Made by a program: the position numbers and the translations under genes
Part shown: positions 5,810 through 16,001 of the stretch, in pieces
How the letters are laid out: every line of letters starts with the position of its first letter
How positions within the stretch are numbered: the first letter of the stretch is position 1
The notes under the pieces: generated by a model
What the model was told of the DNA's origin: nothing
Database searches by the model: none
What the model saw: the letters and a program-made list of their open reading frames with translations, nothing else
NCBI GenBank assembly: GCA_944389915.1
Contig: CALXOC010000023.1
Coordinates: 1 to 33,094, forward strand
DNA: 33,094 nt
Direction of reading: 5' to 3'
Origin: an uncultured Opitutales bacterium
GTDB lineage: Bacteria > Verrucomicrobiota > Verrucomicrobiia > Opitutales > Intestinicryptomonadaceae

Positions 5810-6055
5810 AAACATGCTGCGGAAAATAAAAGAACGCATTCATTTTTGCGCAAATGAAAATTGTGGCCCTGAGCATTTACTTGCAATGCTATTGCCGATG
5901 CATCGGCCATGTTGCCCCCATGCGTTAAATGCAACATTGCAGGGAGAAATTTCCCGCCTGGCTATTTTTTAATTTACAGCGCATAACTTCAAAATTAGTT
6001 TGCTTTTATTTCTGGCATGGTGCTTTTCAGAAAGAAGTATAAAATTATGGGAAAT

Positions 6056-7678
6056 ATGAATAGATTTGCTTTTGTTTTATTTTTTATTTTGGCGGCATTT
6101 GAAATTTCAGGCGGAGAGCCCCTTGGATATGAGGGCGCCTTGAAACTCTATCCGCAGACTGTATCCGCAAGGGATTTCGGTGCCGTGCCCGACGACGGCA
6201 AAGATGACGCAAAAGCCCTGCGAGACGCAGTTTCCGCCGCGAAAAAGCTCTCCGGTAACGGCGGGGTGCGGATAGTTTTGGGGCCCGGACGTTACGATTT
6301 ATTGAGCGAGTCCAATAACACTGCCGTGCCTTTGACAAAATCCAGAAACATAATGATAGACGGCGCCGGGGCAACATTGGTGCAACACAATCAATGGACC
6401 AACTTTCTCGTTATCGGATCTGAAAATACAACTCTGGCAAATATGAATTTTGAGACGGCCGCTCTCCCATATGCGGGCGCCAAAGTAATAGCCCACGGCG
6501 ATTCGTATTTCGATTGCGAAATTCTCTCTCCATATTCGATTAGGGAAGTCCATCCCAAGGCGATAATTACATACGACCGCACTAAAGACGCCCTAAACTG
6601 GTTGGGTTCCGATATATATCAACTATTCACTAAATTGCGGATAAAAAAGCTTTCGGAAACGACCATGCGGGTACCCTTGGAGAAACACAATATGCGAAAA
6701 ATTCCCGCTGTTGGCAGCTATGTGGTGATTCGTTACGAAGTTTATGGGCCGTCAGTGTTCAATATAATGGGGAGCGAAAACACACGCATTTATAATATTG
6801 ACATATATACGCATTCCGGAATGGGCGTTTACGGTTCAAACAGCCGAAATATCTTAATAGACAATTTAAATATAGCCGCAAAAAGCAGAGATTTTTGGAT
6901 GACTACCACCGCCGACGCCACCCATTTCAACTACTGCCGCGGGAAAATAGAGATTCTAAATTCGCGTTTTGAAAAGATGGGAGACGACGCCACAAACGTG
7001 CATCAAATGTATTGGATCCTCAGAGAAAAAATCACTCCATTGAAAATAAGAATCGCCTGGGGAAAGAAATCCAAGCCCGCACCCATATTTTTGCCGCGCA
7101 TCGGAGACAAAATAGCCTTTGGAGAATCAAATAACTGGTTTAGATTCGGAGCCTTTTCGGAAGTAATAAAAATTGACAGCGATGCCGAATCCAAAACTTG
7201 GATTTTAGACTTAAACACCCCACTGCCCGACTATGTTTGCAAAGGGATGCCCATGGGAAACGTCTCCGCAGACCCAAAGCTCATAATACGAAATTGCAAA
7301 GTTCGCGGGAACAGGGCGCGCGGATTTTTAATAAAAGTATCCGAGGCAATAATAGAAAACTGCAGCTTCGACTATCCTACGGGAGCCGCAATACTCATGG
7401 AAAACGACGCAGACTACTGGTATGAGGGATTCCGTACACAAAAAGTTGCAATACGCAACTGCCGCTTCAACAACTGCAATGCAGTGCCCGCGAAAAGCGC
7501 CACTCCCGCCGCGGCTATACTCGACGCCGTAAAATTCTCAAAGGGCATGCCATGCGAAGGCTATGTAAACGGGACAACTACAATAGAAAACTGCATATTT
7601 GAAAATAACGGGCCTGCCCCGATAAAATTGCACCAAACTCAAAATCCCGTATACAAAAACATAACCATAAGGGAGTGA
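6056..7678 (+). CDS. secreted GH110-like alpha-1,3-galactosidase (right-handed beta-helix)
   Basis: A 540-residue exported protein. The start at 6056 is chosen because it gives a clean signal peptide (NRFAFVLFFILAAFEISG); ATGs at 6017 and 6047 add a basic stretch before it. After the signal comes a pectate-lyase-type opening (DFGAVPDDGKDD, a common entry to parallel beta-helix glycosidases) and then repeated beta-helix coils. The diagnostic block is TADATHFNYCRGKIE followed by EKMGDDATNVH. It places Asp residues at 287, 310 and 311, and the 23-residue spacing matches the three acidic catalytic residues of GH110 as I recall them. GH110 enzymes remove terminal alpha-1,3-galactose, as in blood-group-B and linear alpha-Gal structures. 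The enzyme would act in the periplasm or outside the cell. It stands alone on the plus strand, convergent with the GH39-like gene. Family placement is by motif; substrate is inferred. Confidence 0.8.
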   Translation: MNRFAFVLFFILAAFEISGGEPLGYEGALKLYPQTVSARDFGAVPDDGKDDAKALRDAVSAAKKLSGNGGVRIVLGPGRYDLLSESNNTAVPLTKSRNIMIDGAGATLVQHNQWTNFLVIGSENTTLANMNFETAALPYAGAKVIAHGDSYFDCEILSPYSIREVHPKAIITYDRTKDALNWLGSDIYQLFTKLRIKKLSETTMRVPLEKHNMRKIPAVGSYVVIRYEVYGPSVFNIMGSENTRIYNIDIYTHSGMGVYGSNSRNILIDNLNIAAKSRDFWMTTTADATHFNYCRGKIEILNSRFEKMGDDATNVHQMYWILREKITPLKIRIAWGKKSKPAPIFLPRIGDKIAFGESNNWFRFGAFSEVIKIDSDAESKTWILDLNTPLPDYVCKGMPMGNVSADPKLIIRNCKVRGNRARGFLIKVSEAIIENCSFDYPTGAAILMENDADYWYEGFRTQKVAIRNCRFNNCNAVPAKSATPAAAILDAVKFSKGMPCEGYVNGTTTIENCIFENNGPAPIKLHQTQNPVYKNITIRE

Positions 7679-7942: not shown

Positions 7943-9352
7943 TTAGGGGGCTTCTATTTTCAAAAGCGCCACAGATTTTCCGCGCATATCAAGCGTGGAA
8001 TTCTTTTTATCATACATGAAATTGAGCTCGGCATAGCTATACCGGTCGTCTATAATAAGGCACGACTTTAATTTTCCATTAAAAGACATTTTCACGCGCT
8101 TCCTATCGGGAGAGTTGTTGCTTACAAGTATCGCCCTCTCCTTGCCGGAATCGGAAATAGCCGCGCAGACATATATACCTCTATCTCTTGATGATTCGCA
8201 TAAGGCAGCATTTCCAAGTTTTTTCAACTCATTAAAGGCCTTGAATACAAAATAGGATTTTGCAAGTTTGTTCGGCGGTTCATAAAGGCCGCAATAGACT
8301 CCGCCAGGGCGTGCATTGTAATACATGGCCTTGTCTATTGGCGCATCTTGCATTATGCAAAAGGCGGCGCCAACATTGGACGCCCCCAGATATGTGCGGC
8401 GAAGGTCGCTCTCATCTATGCGCGTATTGTCATTCCATTCGTTAAATATGCTTTCTACGTTTGCAAATCCGTTTTCGTCGAGCTTGGAGCGGACATATTC
8501 GGCATGTTTGGCTATGGTGTCAGGATTGGCAAAATACAAGTGCCAAGAAAAAAAATCGAGCGGCGCGCGGGTGCCGGGAGCCGATATGTATTTGAGGAAA
8601 TCGTTAAAATACTGCACAAGACTCTTGTTAAAAGAACTCGTATTTTCACCTGTTATAGCGTAAAATCCGCACGAGGCGTATCCTCCGACTTTTATTTCGG
8701 GAAAGCGCTTCTTCAGATAATTTGCCGCCACACGGTATAGTTCAAAGAACTGTTCTTTTGTTCCGGTCCACATTTGCGGAATTTCAGGCTCATTCCATAT
8801 TTCCCAATATTCTATACCGTATTTGAAACCTTTCGCCCAACCCTCGTTATAATGGCGTATTATGCCCTCGCATATCTTCGCCCATTTGAGGTTGTCCACG
8901 GGCGGATGAATTCGGTAGGCCTTTATCTTATGGTAATTTTCTATTGTTACGCCAAGCCTGTAAAAAACTTTTACGCCGCTGTTTACCAATGTGGCTATAT
9001 ACGCATCGGTAAAGGCGAAATCGTAAGAGTTCGGATCTTCGGGATCGGCGTTAAAGTCGGGAAACACATTGGGAATATCGACAAAGCAAGACCCGCCATA
9101 GCGCCCTCCCACATCGTGCAGCCTGACATAGGGGATTCCAGCCTCAATAAACTCGGGCAAGCTACCGTTGAAAACAATTGGAGATTCGTTCACCCCATGC
9201 AAAGGCTTTATTATTCCCGCTTTTTTTGAAAAATCCACATTTGCATACGGAGCAGTTTCCCCCGCGGCGTTTGAAGAATAGAGGCTATTATAAATAAATA
9301 CCACGCCTGTGCATAGCGCGCATGAAAAAACAAGCCGAAAAATTTTTAGCAT
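7943..9352 (-). CDS. exported GH39-like glycoside hydrolase
   Basis: A 469-residue protein with a hydrophobic N-terminal signal or anchor (about residues 3-25), then a (beta/alpha)8 glycosidase domain. The probable acid/base is E188 in EIWNEPEIP and the probable nucleophile is E305 in IFNEWND. That is the clan GH-A arrangement seen in GH39 beta-xylosidase and related enzymes. A small C-terminal beta domain begins near residue 385. The start at 9352 is supported by a strong G-rich ribosome-binding site (GGGGGGA, complement of 9359-9365) seven bases upstream; a start five codons earlier lacks this. The gene is transcribed toward the GH110 gene and is presumably part of the same glycan-degrading capacity. 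Members of this group act on varied beta-linked substrates, so the substrate is open. An inverted repeat and a -35-like element lie upstream. Confidence 0.8.
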   Translation of the reverse strand: MLKIFRLVFSCALCTGVVFIYNSLYSSNAAGETAPYANVDFSKKAGIIKPLHGVNESPIVFNGSLPEFIEAGIPYVRLHDVGGRYGGSCFVDIPNVFPDFNADPEDPNSYDFAFTDAYIATLVNSGVKVFYRLGVTIENYHKIKAYRIHPPVDNLKWAKICEGIIRHYNEGWAKGFKYGIEYWEIWNEPEIPQMWTGTKEQFFELYRVAANYLKKRFPEIKVGGYASCGFYAITGENTSSFNKSLVQYFNDFLKYISAPGTRAPLDFFSWHLYFANPDTIAKHAEYVRSKLDENGFANVESIFNEWNDNTRIDESDLRRTYLGASNVGAAFCIMQDAPIDKAMYYNARPGGVYCGLYEPPNKLAKSYFVFKAFNELKKLGNAALCESSRDRGIYVCAAISDSGKERAILVSNNSPDRKRVKMSFNGKLKSCLIIDDRYSYAELNFMYDKKNSTLDMRGKSVALLKIEAP

Positions 9353-9394
9353 ATTTAATCCCCCCATTTAGTTTAGTTGCAACATATTTCCTTG

Positions 9395-9652: not shown

Positions 9653-10384
9653 CTAATAAAGCTCCGCTTTGCCCGGAACCATTGTATGGGCATTTATGGA
9701 TTTGCCCCTCAATGCGTTTACAAAAGGTTCAGGATCTTCGGTATTTTTTGCAAATAAGCCGTAGTGCATTGGTATGGCTGCCATGCCGGGAGCCAATTCT
9801 TCAACAACTTTTACGGCTTCGTCCCACTTCATATTGCCGAGTTTGCCGTTTATGCATATCGCAACTATGTCCAAAGGATTCTTGCCGCAGGCTTTTTTTA
9901 CGCCTTCAGCCAAATCATCTTCAAACAAAGTATCGCCGCTTATATATACCGTGCGCCCCGATATGCTTATAACCAGACCTATGGATTTGGGATCCGAATG
10001 GTGCGCCTTAACCGCCTTCACCAGAACGCCGCCGCGCGCATAGGCGTCTCCGACATCCATAATTACAAAGCGCTTTGGGTCATAGCCCATTTTTTTAAAA
10101 TGCTCATATGTGCTCGACGGCCCCACAAAAACGCAATTCGGATACATCTTGGCTATTGGCCTTACAGATTCCTCGTCAAAGTGGTCGAGGTGGTCGTGGG
10201 TAAATATGACCACATCGGGTTTTAGGTCTTCAAACGAGACCGGCACGGGTTGCATTCTCGGCATTCCCCTATCCGCCAAAGCGTCGGAAAGATATGGATC
10301 TACAACAATGCGAATGCCGTCGCCTTCAAGCAGAAAATTGCCCTGGCACAGCCATGTTAATTTTAATTTCTTAAGATTGTTCAT
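9653..10384 (-). CDS. UlaG-like metallo-beta-lactamase-fold hydrolase
   Basis: A 243-residue cytoplasmic protein of the MBL fold, L-ascorbate-6-phosphate lactonase (UlaG)/YtkL-like group. The metal-binding signature is THDHLDHFD near residues 62-70. Further ligands are expected at KAHHSD, at the SGDT loop and at the C-terminal IPMHYG. The short form with a GNFLLEGDGIRIVVDPYL opening is typical of small MBL hydrolases of unknown substrate. The ATG lies inside the last codons of the MFS transporter gene, a 14-base overlap, which implies translational coupling and a shared role. A terminator follows directly. A lactone or phosphodiester of a transported sugar is a reasonable guess, but the sequence does not show it. 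Confidence 0.85.
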   Translation of the reverse strand: MNNLKKLKLTWLCQGNFLLEGDGIRIVVDPYLSDALADRGMPRMQPVPVSFEDLKPDVVIFTHDHLDHFDEESVRPIAKMYPNCVFVGPSSTYEHFKKMGYDPKRFVIMDVGDAYARGGVLVKAVKAHHSDPKSIGLVISISGRTVYISGDTLFEDDLAEGVKKACGKNPLDIVAICINGKLGNMKWDEAVKVVEELAPGMAAIPMHYGLFAKNTEDPEPFVNALRGKSINAHTMVPGKAELY

Positions 10385-11681
10385 AATTACAGTTGTTAAA
10401 ATGGGCTTTTTGATAATCGCGCAGATAAGTGATTTTGTATCCTAATATCAGGAGCAGGCTGCATGCAATCCAAATAATCGATAAAAGCGAAATGCCGAGG
10501 GAAAAGCCTATTACGGGACTGAGTTGCCCAAGAATCCACGGCGCAAGCGACCCCACTCCGAATCCTACCATTAACATGACCCCCGCCGCCGACGAATGGT
10601 ATTTTTGGGGAATTACATCATACAAAACCGGATATGTGTTTGCGTCGAAGAAAGCCCTGCCGAATCCAAACCCGAATAAGCCCAGATAAACCATCCAGAG
10701 CTCGGAGCATATCCCCATGGCCACTATAAAAGGAACCGCAAACAACAAGCCGCATGCCTGCAGCAATATTCTAAATGAACGCCTCTTTGCCGCCAGAATG
10801 TCAGACAATCTTCCCGCAAGTAAAATACCGACAAACGCGGCTATATGGGTATACAACATTGAGTTTAAACCGGCATCGGCCAAATTCATGGAGAATTTTT
10901 CGTGCAAAAACGTGGGAGTCCATGTCAGATAACCCGTAATCACAAATATTAAACCGCTAAAACCTATAGTAAGAATTATGGCGGTTGGAACCTTAAATAG
11001 AGCCCGCATGGCTTCCAGGAAGCTTATTGATTCGGATTTCCGCCCTTTTGCGTCGGCCATAGGCGGTGAATTCTTCTTGTCTCTAAGGCGACGCATTATC
11101 AACAAGCCGTGAAGCACGCCTACAGCTCCGAATATGAAAAACGCGCTCCTCCAACCCCATCTATCGCCAATGTAGCCTGCCAGAAAACCGCTTACTATAA
11201 CCCCGAAATAATATGAAGTTTGGTGTATGCTCATTGCGGAAGCGCGCGTGTCCTCTCCGTGGTAATCCGCTATTGTAGAATAATTAGCGGGTCCAAATAG
11301 AGCCTCTCCCAAGCCCGTGGCGGTACTTCTAAACAAGATAAACATCAATATTCCCGTGCTTAATCCGGTCAGCATTGTCGCAGAGCTCCAAAGCAAAATG
11401 CTGCTGACGATAATCCATTTTTTGCTGAACCTGTCGCCTATATAGCCCGATATGGGAACAAATAAAGCTAACGTCAGATTAAACAGCATGGCTATAAACC
11501 CAATTTGGGCGTCGGTTAGATGCAGGTCCGCCCGTATTAGAGGAAGAACCACATTGAATACTTGGCGATCGGCCTGATTCAGAAAAAATGCGAACCACAA
11601 CAACGCAAGAACTTCCCATTTATAATAGGGATTTTCCGCTATGCCGCTCCTTAATATAGTACGAGTTTCAGATTTCTTCAT
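10371..11681 (-). CDS. MFS transporter (sugar/anion symporter type)
   Basis: An inner-membrane carrier of about 436 residues with 12 predicted helices and a short basic hydrophilic loop near the middle (RRLRDKKNSPPMADAKGRK). The signature loop between helices 2 and 3 is GYIGDRFSKKW. The first helix carries NQADRQVFNVVLPLI, a pattern seen in the anion:cation symporter and spinster-like branches of MFS. The start is uncertain: the ATG at 11681 gives MKKSETR, and an ATG at 11705 adds eight residues. Neither has a good ribosome-binding site. It overlaps the UlaG-like hydrolase by 14 bases, so the two are co-translated. Given the adjacent glycosidases, uptake of a sugar, sugar acid or derivative is likely. 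The specific substrate cannot be read from sequence. Confidence 0.88.
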   Translation of the reverse strand: MKKSETRTILRSGIAENPYYKWEVLALLWFAFFLNQADRQVFNVVLPLIRADLHLTDAQIGFIAMLFNLTLALFVPISGYIGDRFSKKWIIVSSILLWSSATMLTGLSTGILMFILFRSTATGLGEALFGPANYSTIADYHGEDTRASAMSIHQTSYYFGVIVSGFLAGYIGDRWGWRSAFFIFGAVGVLHGLLIMRRLRDKKNSPPMADAKGRKSESISFLEAMRALFKVPTAIILTIGFSGLIFVITGYLTWTPTFLHEKFSMNLADAGLNSMLYTHIAAFVGILLAGRLSDILAAKRRSFRILLQACGLLFAVPFIVAMGICSELWMVYLGLFGFGFGRAFFDANTYPVLYDVIPQKYHSSAAGVMLMVGFGVGSLAPWILGQLSPVIGFSLGISLLSIIWIACSLLLILGYKITYLRDYQKAHFNNCNYEQS

Positions 11682-11816
11682 GTGCGTTACAAATAATTTG
11701 AACATTCATTGGGGCGTGTGTCAATAGCGATTTAGCTTTACTTGGGGATTTGGCTCGCTATGGTGGCGGCAATGGAGTGAATTTCCACAATAAAGCTTTA
11801 AACATGCCGACATTTT

Positions 11817-12653
11817 ATGACATCCGCAAAAAATAAAATAACAGCGATTGTATTGGCGACATTTCTCATGCTTGCGGCGCAAACTTACGCCTTCAGCTTG
11901 ATTGCCAAACGCGGAGATTGTCCGCGCGCACCTGAGAATTCGGTAGAGGCTGCAAAACTCAGTTGGAAGGCCGGAGTAAAAGTGCTCGAGGCCGACTTCC
12001 ACATTACAAAATCGGGAAAGATAATATGCGTAAATTCTGAGATCGAGTTGAAGGAGCTATCCGGATGCAATAAGAAAATAAGCGATATGAGCAATGCCGA
12101 CATAGCCAAAATTAGCTTGAGCGCCACAAAGCGTTGGAACAGGGAATATCCCTACAAAGTGCCGCTTGCCACTCTTGAAGATATTTTAAAAACCATACCC
12201 GCCCAAGGTTCCATAATAGCAGAGATACGCGGTTACGGGCGTGATTTTGCCGAAAAGTTCGAGCTTGCCCGCAAAAGCGCCGGAGTGCCAAAAGACAAAA
12301 TAGCGGTTTCATGCACAAATCTGGGCGAACTTGCCGACTTTAAATCAAAGAGCGGCGGATACACTTATTACTGGTCTTTCTATATGAACGAGCAGCCAAA
12401 TTCCGTATATCCGGCCGCCGACGACGTTGCCGCAAAGTGCAAGAATTTAGGAATAGACGGCGTAATTATTACAAATCCGAAAGTCGTAAAATATCCGGAA
12501 TACATATCTATATTGAAGAAATCCGGGTTAAAGGTGTACGTTGCCCCCGTCAACACTGTGGAATTGACAATGGAGCTTAGAAATATTGGCGTTGACGGTG
12601 TGCTCGCCTTTAACGCGGCGGAACTCTTAAAAAAGTTTAAGCCCGCGCGATGA
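11817..12653 (+). CDS. exported GDPD-fold protein, probably catalytically inactive
   Basis: A 278-residue protein with a signal peptide (about residues 6-25, ending TYA-FS) and a glycerophosphodiester phosphodiesterase TIM barrel. The family opening IAHRG...PEN appears as IAKRGDCPRAPENS, with K31 in place of the first catalytic His. The metal-binding pair remains as E58 and D60 (LEADF). The second catalytic His, normally in an (I/L)HD motif, is replaced by N73 in ICVNSEIEL. EIR replaces the usual EIK. Losing both histidines while keeping the fold and metal acidic residues suggests a binding or structural role, or a changed chemistry. It is divergent from the MFS gene. No clear ribosome-binding site precedes the ATG. 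The fold is confident; inactivity is inferred from the residues. Confidence 0.82.
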   Translation: MTSAKNKITAIVLATFLMLAAQTYAFSLIAKRGDCPRAPENSVEAAKLSWKAGVKVLEADFHITKSGKIICVNSEIELKELSGCNKKISDMSNADIAKISLSATKRWNREYPYKVPLATLEDILKTIPAQGSIIAEIRGYGRDFAEKFELARKSAGVPKDKIAVSCTNLGELADFKSKSGGYTYYWSFYMNEQPNSVYPAADDVAAKCKNLGIDGVIITNPKVVKYPEYISILKKSGLKVYVAPVNTVELTMELRNIGVDGVLAFNAAELLKKFKPAR

Positions 12654-12701: not shown

Positions 12702-12770
12702 TAGACCGATACGACAAAGGCGCTTTATTTGCGCGCCAAGCATATTGCGCAATTACACAAGAGTTACAAT

Positions 12771-15700
12771 ATGAAAAGAATTATAATAATAACATCTTGC
12801 ATTTTCGCATGCGCGGCGATCTTGCTTGCATGCATTGCGAACAGTTCCCTGCAGACGGCATTGGCAAATAAAATTTTGTCCGAAAATATTCCCGAGGCAA
12901 AAATATCGAAACTGGACATAGGTCTAAGAGAGATTACAGTCGGGGGCTTGAAGCTGCCAGTTCAAAACGGAGACATTGCCGAAATGGAATCGCTCTCGGT
13001 TCGCTATTGTTTTTTTGCCTTATTTGAGAAAAAAATAAAAATATTGGAGCTTAATATAAGCAACGCAAATTATGCTTTAGCGCCACGGACGCAATCGCAA
13101 AGCACGCAAAAAATTGCCGATAAAAATTCGGATGCCAAAAGTAAAAATGCCGAAGGCGAAAAAAGCGCACGCAGCACAAACGCACAAAACCAAAGCGCCT
13201 CTTGGAGCTGGAATATAGAGCTCGACAAAGCTGCAATAAATGCGGGGCTGTCGGGCGACGGCGGAAAAGTTAGAATAAAAGCGGAAATATCGAAACTTGC
13301 CATCGACAAGAATTTTTTTCCCGAATCCGCAGAAATTGATATCGCAATCAATGCTTTCCCAAAAAATGCCCCCGCAAGCGAAGCGTTTTTCAAAGCCGAA
13401 GTAATTCCCGAAAATGGCGCCAGGAAAATCAGCGCCAAGCTCGACTTGAATGCAAAAGAACTGCTCCGCCTGTCGGGGCAATGCCACCAACATTTCGATT
13501 CCGGCAATGCGAATCTAAAAATAGACATAGACGACAAACTAATCTCCTCATTGACGGCAGGAATCTTTAGCATTCCGAATTTCCGGGCCGCCATGGACGC
13601 CGCAATAAAATTCAACGGCGGCAAAGCCCGCTCGACGCTGTCATTTGACGGCGACTTCGCCATGCCAAACACGTCGGCTATTTCCGGGATAAAAATTGCG
13701 GACAATTTTAACTTTAAAGCCTTTGCGTCGCTAAGCGCCGACGCAAAAAGCGCGCAGATTGACAATGCCAATTTGAAGCTTTTTGCCGGAGCCAATCTGC
13801 TTGCATGCGCGGAAACGAAGCGGCCATTTTGCATTGGCAAGAACTTTGAGTTTCCCGAAGGCGAATTGCTCGCAGTGGAGGCCAACATACCCAAAAAAAT
13901 AATATCGCAATTTTTCAACAACGGAGCCGTGGATGCGGAACGCCTTAAGCTCTCCGCCCTATTAAAAGGCGTTCAAGACGGGAAAATCTCGGCAGACGCC
14001 TCGGCGGCGCTTGAAGGCATATCTATTACATCAGGCAAGCGCCCCATTCTGAGCGGCGCCGAGCTCCGCGCGGACATGGTTGCGCTTCTCGATATTTCAA
14101 AAAACCCCAAATGCCTACAAATATCAAAACTGAACGCGGAATCGAGGATATCGGGCAAGAGTTTCGTGGAGGCAAAAAGCACAAAAGAAGTCTCCCTTTA
14201 TCTGGATCGCTCCGCAAAGATTCCGCAGGGCGAGCTGGCTGACATAAAATTGGACATTCCCGTGTCAGTGTTTGCATCATTTATTCCGAATATGGAAATA
14301 GACGCTCAAAATCTGTGGGGCGAAATGATTTTGTCGGCAGACGCCGACGGCACGGTAAATCTCTCCACAAAGAACGGTGCCCAACTCGACAAGTTAAGCC
14401 TGCGTTCGAGCTCGGGCGGCATATTATCAGACGCTAACCTCAAAGCCGATTTAAAAGCCTATTTAAAACCCGATTTTTCCGGCGGCGCCGCCATAAAAAT
14501 CTCTGCCGGATCAAAGAATCGTGAAATGGCCGAAGCCACTGCCGATATTTCCCTGCCGGGGAAAGACCGCCTTTGCGTATCAATATCAGGAAACGCCGAT
14601 ATTCCGGCATTGCTTTCGCAGCCGGCATTGAAAGTTTTGGAAGGGCTCTCGTCCGGCAAACTCGATATAAAGCTGTTTACCGACGGGAAAAGCGCCGAAC
14701 TGAGCGCTTCGGCAAAGGACCTGAAGAATGCCAACAACACTAATCTCGCAGATTCGATATCCTTGAATGCAAGCGCCAATATCATCGGCGGATTTTCGAA
14801 TGCGGAAGGCAAAGCAACAATTGAAATTGCGGCTCCATCGGGCATGAGCGATGCTTCGTTAAATTTCAAGAAAAAGGAAAACATAAGCTTCAATATAGTC
14901 TCAAATAAAATTTATGTCGACGACCTTCTGGGATTGATGGAAGTTCTATCCCGCAGCAGCGCCGAGCCCGAATCGCCGCTAAGCGCGCAAGCCAAAAGCG
15001 GAATCCCGCACGCGAGCCGCAGCTCCACCGCTTCAGATGCAAAAGCCCGCACAGGCAATGAAAGCGCGGCAAATGAAAGCGCGTGCTGGTATATCGGGAG
15101 CGACATAATCGCCGATGCGGAATTAAAGCTCGTAATGTTCCGCTCGAATCCCGTACTTGAAAAACTAAAGCTGTCGGCATTGTGCAACAGTAGCGAAATT
15201 TGCTTGGAGCGCCTTAGCGCCGAGATTTACGGAGCTCCGCTTAGCGGGAGCGCGAAGGCCATTTTTACCCCCGGGAACGGCGGCGAATATTCGCTGGAAA
15301 ACGCAAAATTATCGCTGGCGAATTTCCACTCGGAGAAGCTATTTTCAGACAAATCAAATCCGCCTATAAGCGGCGCATTTGATATAGACGTATCGCTTTA
15401 CGGAAAAGCCAAAAGCCTCAAAGAGTTGCCGGCATCGGCCGCCGGCCAGGCTGAAATAAAGAGCGGGGGCGGATTTGTAAAAATACTATCTGAAGACTCC
15501 AAAGCCGGAAAAATAACAAAGGCGGCCGGGACCGCCGCTAAGATAGCCAACGCCATTTTTTCGGACCGCGTAAAAGAGCTGGGCGGAATATCCGAACTGA
15601 CCGACATTCTGTCCAAGTTAAAATACAATTCCGCCGAGGTGCTGATTATTCGGAGTCCGGAAACTCTTGATCTATCTATAAAAAAAGCCGTATTTAACAC

Positions 15701-16001
15701 CCCGCAAATAATACTGTCGGCCTCCGGGGGAAAAATACTTTCGGACGGAAGCGACAATTTGAAAAACTACAAGCTCGACATTCCCGTATCTACCTATGTC
15801 GCCAAGGGAAACATGTGGGATTTATTCCGCAAATGCGGCTTGGCTGGAAATTCGGAAAGCGATATTTATCCGGGCTATTACAACGGGGCCTCGTTCAATG
15901 TGGGCGGCACTGTAAGCTCGCCCGAAAACGACATGATGAGCAAAGTTGTATCCCGCCCGGTGTTGACAGGAGAGAGCCTTCTTAAAAAGCTTTTTAAATA
16001 A
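12771..16001 (+). CDS. AsmA-like large envelope protein
   Basis: A 1076-residue protein with one N-terminal hydrophobic segment (about residues 3-24) and then a very long periplasmic region of repeating beta-strand units. The start at 12771 is preferred because the membrane segment follows at once and GAG lies upstream; a TTG start at 12729 is unsupported. The pattern of alternating Ala/Ser/Lys strands with recurring phrases such as ISANADI, and a C-terminal block (about 930-1076) ending in GGTVSSPENDMM, fits the AsmA/TamB-like bridge proteins. These carry or regulate lipid traffic between the two membranes. Two low-complexity linkers, near residues 108-142 and 735-775, interrupt the repeats. 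A cysteine in LLAC near residue 21 gives an imperfect lipobox. It stands alone between GDPD and the convergent glnD. Family assignment is by architecture. Confidence 0.7.
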   Translation: MKRIIIITSCIFACAAILLACIANSSLQTALANKILSENIPEAKISKLDIGLREITVGGLKLPVQNGDIAEMESLSVRYCFFALFEKKIKILELNISNANYALAPRTQSQSTQKIADKNSDAKSKNAEGEKSARSTNAQNQSASWSWNIELDKAAINAGLSGDGGKVRIKAEISKLAIDKNFFPESAEIDIAINAFPKNAPASEAFFKAEVIPENGARKISAKLDLNAKELLRLSGQCHQHFDSGNANLKIDIDDKLISSLTAGIFSIPNFRAAMDAAIKFNGGKARSTLSFDGDFAMPNTSAISGIKIADNFNFKAFASLSADAKSAQIDNANLKLFAGANLLACAETKRPFCIGKNFEFPEGELLAVEANIPKKIISQFFNNGAVDAERLKLSALLKGVQDGKISADASAALEGISITSGKRPILSGAELRADMVALLDISKNPKCLQISKLNAESRISGKSFVEAKSTKEVSLYLDRSAKIPQGELADIKLDIPVSVFASFIPNMEIDAQNLWGEMILSADADGTVNLSTKNGAQLDKLSLRSSSGGILSDANLKADLKAYLKPDFSGGAAIKISAGSKNREMAEATADISLPGKDRLCVSISGNADIPALLSQPALKVLEGLSSGKLDIKLFTDGKSAELSASAKDLKNANNTNLADSISLNASANIIGGFSNAEGKATIEIAAPSGMSDASLNFKKKENISFNIVSNKIYVDDLLGLMEVLSRSSAEPESPLSAQAKSGIPHASRSSTASDAKARTGNESAANESACWYIGSDIIADAELKLVMFRSNPVLEKLKLSALCNSSEICLERLSAEIYGAPLSGSAKAIFTPGNGGEYSLENAKLSLANFHSEKLFSDKSNPPISGAFDIDVSLYGKAKSLKELPASAAGQAEIKSGGGFVKILSEDSKAGKITKAAGTAAKIANAIFSDRVKELGGISELTDILSKLKYNSAEVLIIRSPETLDLSIKKAVFNTPQIILSASGGKILSDGSDNLKNYKLDIPVSTYVAKGNMWDLFRKCGLAGNSESDIYPGYYNGASFNVGGTVSSPENDMMSKVVSRPVLTGESLLKKLFK

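Follow-up and report, generated by a model that had tools for sequence, protein, structure and literature searches.

Both catalytic histidines of the glycerophosphodiester phosphodiesterase (GDPD) fold are replaced, by K31 and N73, in a protein encoded at positions 11817..12653 (+ strand) of the window, the 33,094-nucleotide stretch of DNA from an uncultured Opitutales bacterium that was analysed here. An earlier note on this DNA had reported the two replacements; the loss is confirmed and is somewhat stronger than was stated there. The analysis shows the sequence, the open frame, the predicted fold and the uniqueness of the protein in our sample. We lean towards the reading that this is a GDPD paralogue, probably exported, in which catalysis has been disabled and the pocket for metal and phosphate retained, perhaps so that it serves as a binder.

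The gene (P0001) starts with ATG and runs for 278 codons without an internal stop, so that its ORF translates into a protein of 278 amino acids. Pfam family GDPD (PF03009) covers residues 32-263 with 56.8 bits, above the curated cut-off of 23.6. When 50 viral-contig GDPDs were supplied as an alignment, AlphaFold2 gave a model with a pLDDT of 91.1 and a pTM of 0.86; the alignment rows are 14-21% identical to the window protein, and the model therefore speaks for the fold and not for the detailed shape of the pocket. A prediction made without an alignment (pLDDT 55.6) was set aside in favour of the alignment-based model. The predicted fold is a TIM barrel nearest to the GDPDs. Among solved structures it is closest to 2pz0, the GDPD of T. 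tengcongensis, with a Z of 30.0 and an rmsd of 1.9 over 235 residues, and Foldseek also places this entry first; the B. subtilis GlpQ structure 5t91 gave a Z of 28.6. The SMaseD/PLD-type fold of spider and bacterial PLDs was rejected as the nearest relative, its Z of 15-16 being far below that of 2pz0. Thus, the GDPD barrel that the earlier note had proposed, and for which it had suggested structural modelling as a check, is borne out by the Pfam match and by the model. A GDPD-fold region is also found at residues 8-240 of a multidomain beta-1,3(4)-glucanase (PDB 7ww4 and 7wwc), which matches the model with Z values of 25.5 and 25.9.

Residues 1-25 (MTSAKNK...QTYA; 11817..11891, + strand) form a putative signal peptide. 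Read by eye, it consists of K5-N6-K7, a hydrophobic stretch at 8-21 and QTYA before F26, and the model places a helix at residues 4-21. The protein is thus apparently exported.

To map the catalytic residues, we used the motif of PfGDPD together with an alignment to 2pz0. According to the PfGDPD paper (PMC4926365), the motif is HR..EN..EXD..HD; His17 and His59 form the catalytic pair, Glu44, Asp46 and Glu111 lie at the metal, and the substrate network includes Arg18 and Lys113. From reference to window protein, the correspondences are H17 to K31, R18 to R32, E44 to E58, D46 to D60, H59 to N73, E111 to E136 and K113 to R138. The comparison set comprised 122 other GDPD sequences (26 from the family search, 75 from the order level, 20 from the phylum level and 1 from a viral contig), including 3 pairs that are more than 90% identical. 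The K31 codon (11907..11909; all codons given here are on the + strand) lies at the first catalytic position, H17 of both TtGDPD and PfGDPD, which is histidine in 122/122 of these sequences. The N73 codon (12033..12035) lies at the second, H59, which is histidine in all 121 that have a letter there, the single gap belonging to a fragment (L057 2-319). A catalytic GDPD carries one histidine in its HR motif and another in its HD motif, and the window protein has neither.

The remainder of the site is kept in part. R32, the phosphate-contact arginine (11910..11912), is present in 121/122 others, and the metal ligands of the E58-A-D60 segment (11988..11996) are Glu and Asp in 122/122. In the E136-I-R138 segment (12222..12230), the metal ligand is kept (E or D in 119/121 others, H in 2) and the lysine, present in 120/121, has become arginine. 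The metal-ligand trio Glu/Asp/Glu is therefore complete at the aligned columns, and the RG..PEN motif is also kept, in agreement with the earlier claim that barrel, PEN motif and E58/D60 remain. However, the description of the motifs as otherwise well kept was overstated, because pocket changes absent from that account, namely K138R, W243A and the conversion of 263-265 to LAF, accompany the loss of the histidines. A243 (12543..12545) occupies a position that is W, Y or F in 117/117 others. L263-A264-F265 (12603..12611) stands in place of a (T/C)-T-(D/N) segment, in which position 264 is T, S or C and position 265 is D or N in 116/116 others. K138R alone has little meaning, since position 138 is loose among 86 viral-contig GDPDs (K in 43, R in 13, another residue in 30). 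These sequences are looser elsewhere in the pocket as well: position 243 is W, Y or F in 83/85, position 264 is T or S in 72/75 and A in 1, and position 265 is D or N in 72/74.

An ordinary active GDPD that draws its histidine from elsewhere, or an artefact of assembly, was also considered, and we regard both as highly improbable. H62 (codon 12000..12002) is only two residues away from D60, one of the metal ligands, and the genome assembly is a draft in 218 contigs. However, H62 is the sole histidine of the protein and the mechanism employs two; it aligns with a glutamine in 2pz0; and histidine occurs at this position in 45/122 others, all 45 of which have both catalytic histidines as well. 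No catalytic histidine supplied from another position was found, and H62 is no substitute. As for an artefact, several base changes would be needed within an open frame that is about 34% identical to its relatives, for which isolated read errors are insufficient.

Matches at E 1e-8 or better were obtained in 15 of the 19 family genomes, the own genome included, and among the matches listed in the family, order and phylum searches, identity to the nearest relatives reaches no more than about 36%. Among the viral-contig GDPDs (89 matched ORFs minus 3 short ones, of which 50 were left after removal of similar ones), histidine occupies both positions 31 and 73 in 86/86; because AHRG is part of one of the two search patterns, the count at position 31 is partly built in, while position 73 lies outside the patterns. 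A clade with K and N at the two histidine positions, which the earlier note had put forward as the thing to look for, was not found among the matches listed in the family (19 genomes), the order (273 genomes) or the phylum (387 genomes), and the window protein is a singleton in this sample. The order-level sample consisted of the family rows, 15 loci (L046-L060) and 60 further stretches, weaker matches being left out, and the phylum-level sample consisted of the 18 new loci returned by the search. A DNA pattern for (A/G)KRG-x5-P(E/Q)N hit 14 places in the 387 phylum genomes, among which the window's own was alone in matching the family profile. Plasmids and phages yielded one weak match each, and no K/N clade. 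All of these searches are biased towards sequences with normal motifs. One further match, L030, the sole one in the genome-contig search, was rejected as due to chance, since the matched ORF is by eye a penicillin-binding-type protein and not a GDPD.

Does the loss reflect selection for another role, as had been argued earlier, or simple decay? At least 4 base changes are required to account for H-to-K, H-to-N and K-to-R; over the seven key codons, with their 21 bases, this amounts to 0.19 per site. In 2000 runs of a drift simulation without indels, the frame stayed free of stops in 0.9% at 0.19 substitutions per site, in 5.9% at 0.1 and in 21% at 0.05, with the reservation that the seven key codons may be atypical of the whole gene. 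The intact frame thus argues against a long neutral decay, while it leaves room for a recent relaxation. The codon-bias score of the gene, 0.074, falls within the span of the other 13 window genes tested (0.035-0.122). On a profile built from the 25 remaining family members, the window protein reaches 240.7 bits, which is 23rd of 26 in a leave-one-out ranking and above three members.

The distribution of the changes bears on the same question. The window protein misses 4/9 conserved pocket positions and 15/45 other conserved positions. At the non-pocket positions its match is 0.67, against a mean of 0.78 (sd 0.11), and 4/25 relatives are at or below its value; these four, equally or more diverged at non-pocket positions, miss at most 2/9 pocket positions. 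As equally diverged relatives kept the pocket and the window protein did not, the comparison points to a lost constraint on catalysis. The similar proportions missed inside and outside the pocket fit such a loss, and they fit selection for a new pocket just as well. Of the earlier proposal, therefore, the part directed against decay holds for a long neutral decay, whereas the idea that a new role was selected is plausible and no more, since it cannot be shown when no K/N clade was found.

A redundant paralogue that lost its function recently and is now drifting, a dead enzyme with no new role whose frame is still unbroken, is the most likely of the rivals, and we consider it possible but rather unlikely. 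It would account for a singleton without K/N relatives, for the similar proportions missed at pocket and non-pocket positions, and for an end branch of 1.72, which is among the five longest of 35 in a tree that did not resolve the placement of the protein. GDPD paralogues are moreover many in the genus, where decay does occur, and a frame without stops is nothing unusual at 0.05 substitutions per site. On the other hand, the changes at the catalytic codons imply at least 0.19 per site if they are typical, a level of drift that seldom leaves a frame free of stops; the protein still outscores three family members on the family profile, and its fold is confidently predicted. The decaying copy of the genus, moreover, has the opposite pattern, an in-frame stop with both histidines kept.

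That copy, L020 (G006:C1:1190077-1190847, - strand), is a GDPD paralogue from a genome of the same genus. It is interrupted by an in-frame TAG some 228 codons in, past which the family motifs continue in frame. It is a copy decaying by ordinary means. Elsewhere in the family, two GDPD genes lie in tandem at L022 (G015:C8:6281-8060), and a genome carries up to 4 exported-looking GDPD paralogues. The own genome of the window has a second GDPD, the visible 5' part of which has both histidines; hence, the cell may still possess GDPD activity, and redundancy with this other GDPD is plausible.

The fold being kept while the catalytic residues are lost supports the reading that we prefer, a disabled paralogue with its binding pocket retained. 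A paralogue of the family's glycerophosphodiester phosphodiesterases would have lost the acid/base histidine pair (K31, N73), most likely making the GDPD reaction impossible at a useful rate and the protein a pseudoenzyme, while the metal ligands E58, D60 and E136 and a positive pocket (K31, R32, R138) would have been kept. With these features in place, a divalent metal and a phosphodiester or phosphate ligand would most likely still be bound outside the cytoplasm, without turnover. Judging from mutants of related enzymes, turnover would be absent and the fold and metal site maintained; its export, its ligand and any benefit for the cell are points that we infer. Some of the evidence already given runs against this reading: the changes at 138, 243 and 263-265 mean that the old ligand may not be bound, the similar proportions missed inside and outside the pocket are what plain relaxation predicts, and the occurrence of K/N in no relative gives no sign of a conserved state.

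The mutants of related enzymes bear on both sides. In S. aureus LpgD, the mutant of the second histidine (H93A) and the double mutant H51A/H93A are folded, stabilised by Mn2+ and deficient on LPG, whereas H51A alone retains significant activity, and H93A and the double mutant still act, although in a compromised manner, on the cyclic intermediate, cyclic LPA (PMC10404611). A spider PLD with H47N (PDB 9die) is catalytically inactivated and gave crystals with substrate or product (PMC13079978). Both cases resemble the window protein, either in the loss of the acid/base pair or in an Asn at a His position, although the correspondence of H47N with N73 is taken from the fold family and was not computed. 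They differ from it in that they are engineered single or double changes in pockets that are otherwise intact. As the LpgD mutants act on the cyclic intermediate, "dead" may be too strong a word for the window protein. The histidine mutants of LyPls-PLD were made but failed to express (PMC5095149), and loss of the histidines is therefore not always harmless to folding or expression. The cyclic-intermediate activity and the failed expression both count against the preferred reading; nevertheless, that the window protein binds without turnover can fairly be inferred, with weak residual chemistry being possible.

Two more specific proposals can be made. The first is a changed chemistry powered by K31 or by the metal centre, such as the opening of a cyclic phosphodiester or an attack on another phosphate ester. 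The metal ligands and R32 are kept, K31 could serve as an acid or base, and LpgD devoid of both histidines acted on cyclic LPA (PMC10404611). However, the near-invariant aromatic at 243 and the 263-265 segment are lost too, no conserved clade marking a new activity was found, and no partner gene is steadily linked, so that we judge a changed chemistry to be improbable. The second proposal is that the GDPD barrel has become a natural phosphodiester-binding receptor, in which N73 would block turnover, much as the engineered H47N holds its substrate, and K31, R32, R138 and the metal ligands would hold a phosphate ligand outside the cytoplasm, for sensing or for ligand delivery. We offer this as a speculation that is unlikely as it stands.

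Compared with the bacterial GDPD/GlpQ family (PF03009; 2pz0, 5t91), the window protein shares the TIM barrel, the HMM match, the RG..PEN motif, the E/D/E metal ligands and the phosphate-contact arginine; unlike that family, it has both histidines replaced, arginine for lysine at 138, no aromatic at 243 and an altered 263-265 segment. The nearest natural cases are those of PMC6299612, which reports GDPD-derived sequences with His 12 and/or His 47 replaced, comprising a fungal group and two actinobacterial sequences, and puts them aside as likely to have diverged in function. Like the window protein, these variants are natural cases in which a lineage derived from GDPD has lost one catalytic position or both. 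However, they belong to the GDPD-like SMaseD/PLD lineage, which is marked by a largely deleted GDPD-I insert and a C-terminal plug motif (PMC6299612), whereas the nearest fold of the window protein is a true GDPD; the fungal group also lacks Glu 32, whereas the window protein keeps its metal ligands. Among the titles and abstract beginnings covered by our literature search, no bacterial GDPD devoid of both histidines was found.

Disarmed enzymes are a known kind of protein and dead enzymes are common; for this reason the wider surprise is small, and the window protein is a clear but isolated example of a disabled enzyme. Lost histidines in GDPD-derived proteins are also known already (PMC6299612). 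Since both histidines are present in every other aligned GDPD that has a letter at these positions, a whole and apparently exported homologue without them offers a natural means of testing what barrel and metal site can do unaided. It also serves as a warning, as the Pfam score alone, well over its cut-off, would label the protein an active phosphodiesterase.

The neighbours described earlier, a divergent MFS carrier and UlaG-like hydrolase in a glycosidase region, are present, although the UlaG-type and GH39-type matches are weak. Divergent from the GDPD-fold gene lie the MFS carrier (10371-11705, - strand) and a beta-lactamase-fold protein with the UlaG-type match (9653-10384, - strand), and beyond these two is the GH39-type match (7943-9367, - strand). 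MFS, UlaG-like and GlnD genes were found near GDPD in none of 15 stretches from relatives. A beta-helix protein, weakly rhamnogalacturonidase-like (6017-7678, + strand), has a 73% identical homologue (G014:C4:91350-92984) about 6 kb from a GDPD gene in G014 (L126), one of the 15 stretches. There is no steady link between the two, as none of six other beta-helix homologues (at least 38% identical over most of the query; the best rows of G012, G001, G002, G018, G016 and G013) shares a contig with the GDPD matches. The surroundings are thus no dependable hint of function. A scan for promoters and terminators gave 4 promoter-like sites, compared with 2.5 expected, and no terminator.

On the other side of the GDPD-fold gene, a large protein of 1090 amino acids with a hydrophobic N-terminus is encoded at 12729-16001 (+ strand); neither Pfam, at a threshold as loose as E 10, nor the PDB sequences, at E 1, gave a match to it. 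From its likely start, ATG 12771, it would have 1076 amino acids, and that ATG, if it is the start, is 117 bases past the stop of the GDPD-fold gene. Homologues occur in 16/19 family genomes, the own genome included; the gene adjoins a GDPD gene here only, and in G007 (L135), another of the 15 stretches, the two are about 6.5 kb apart.
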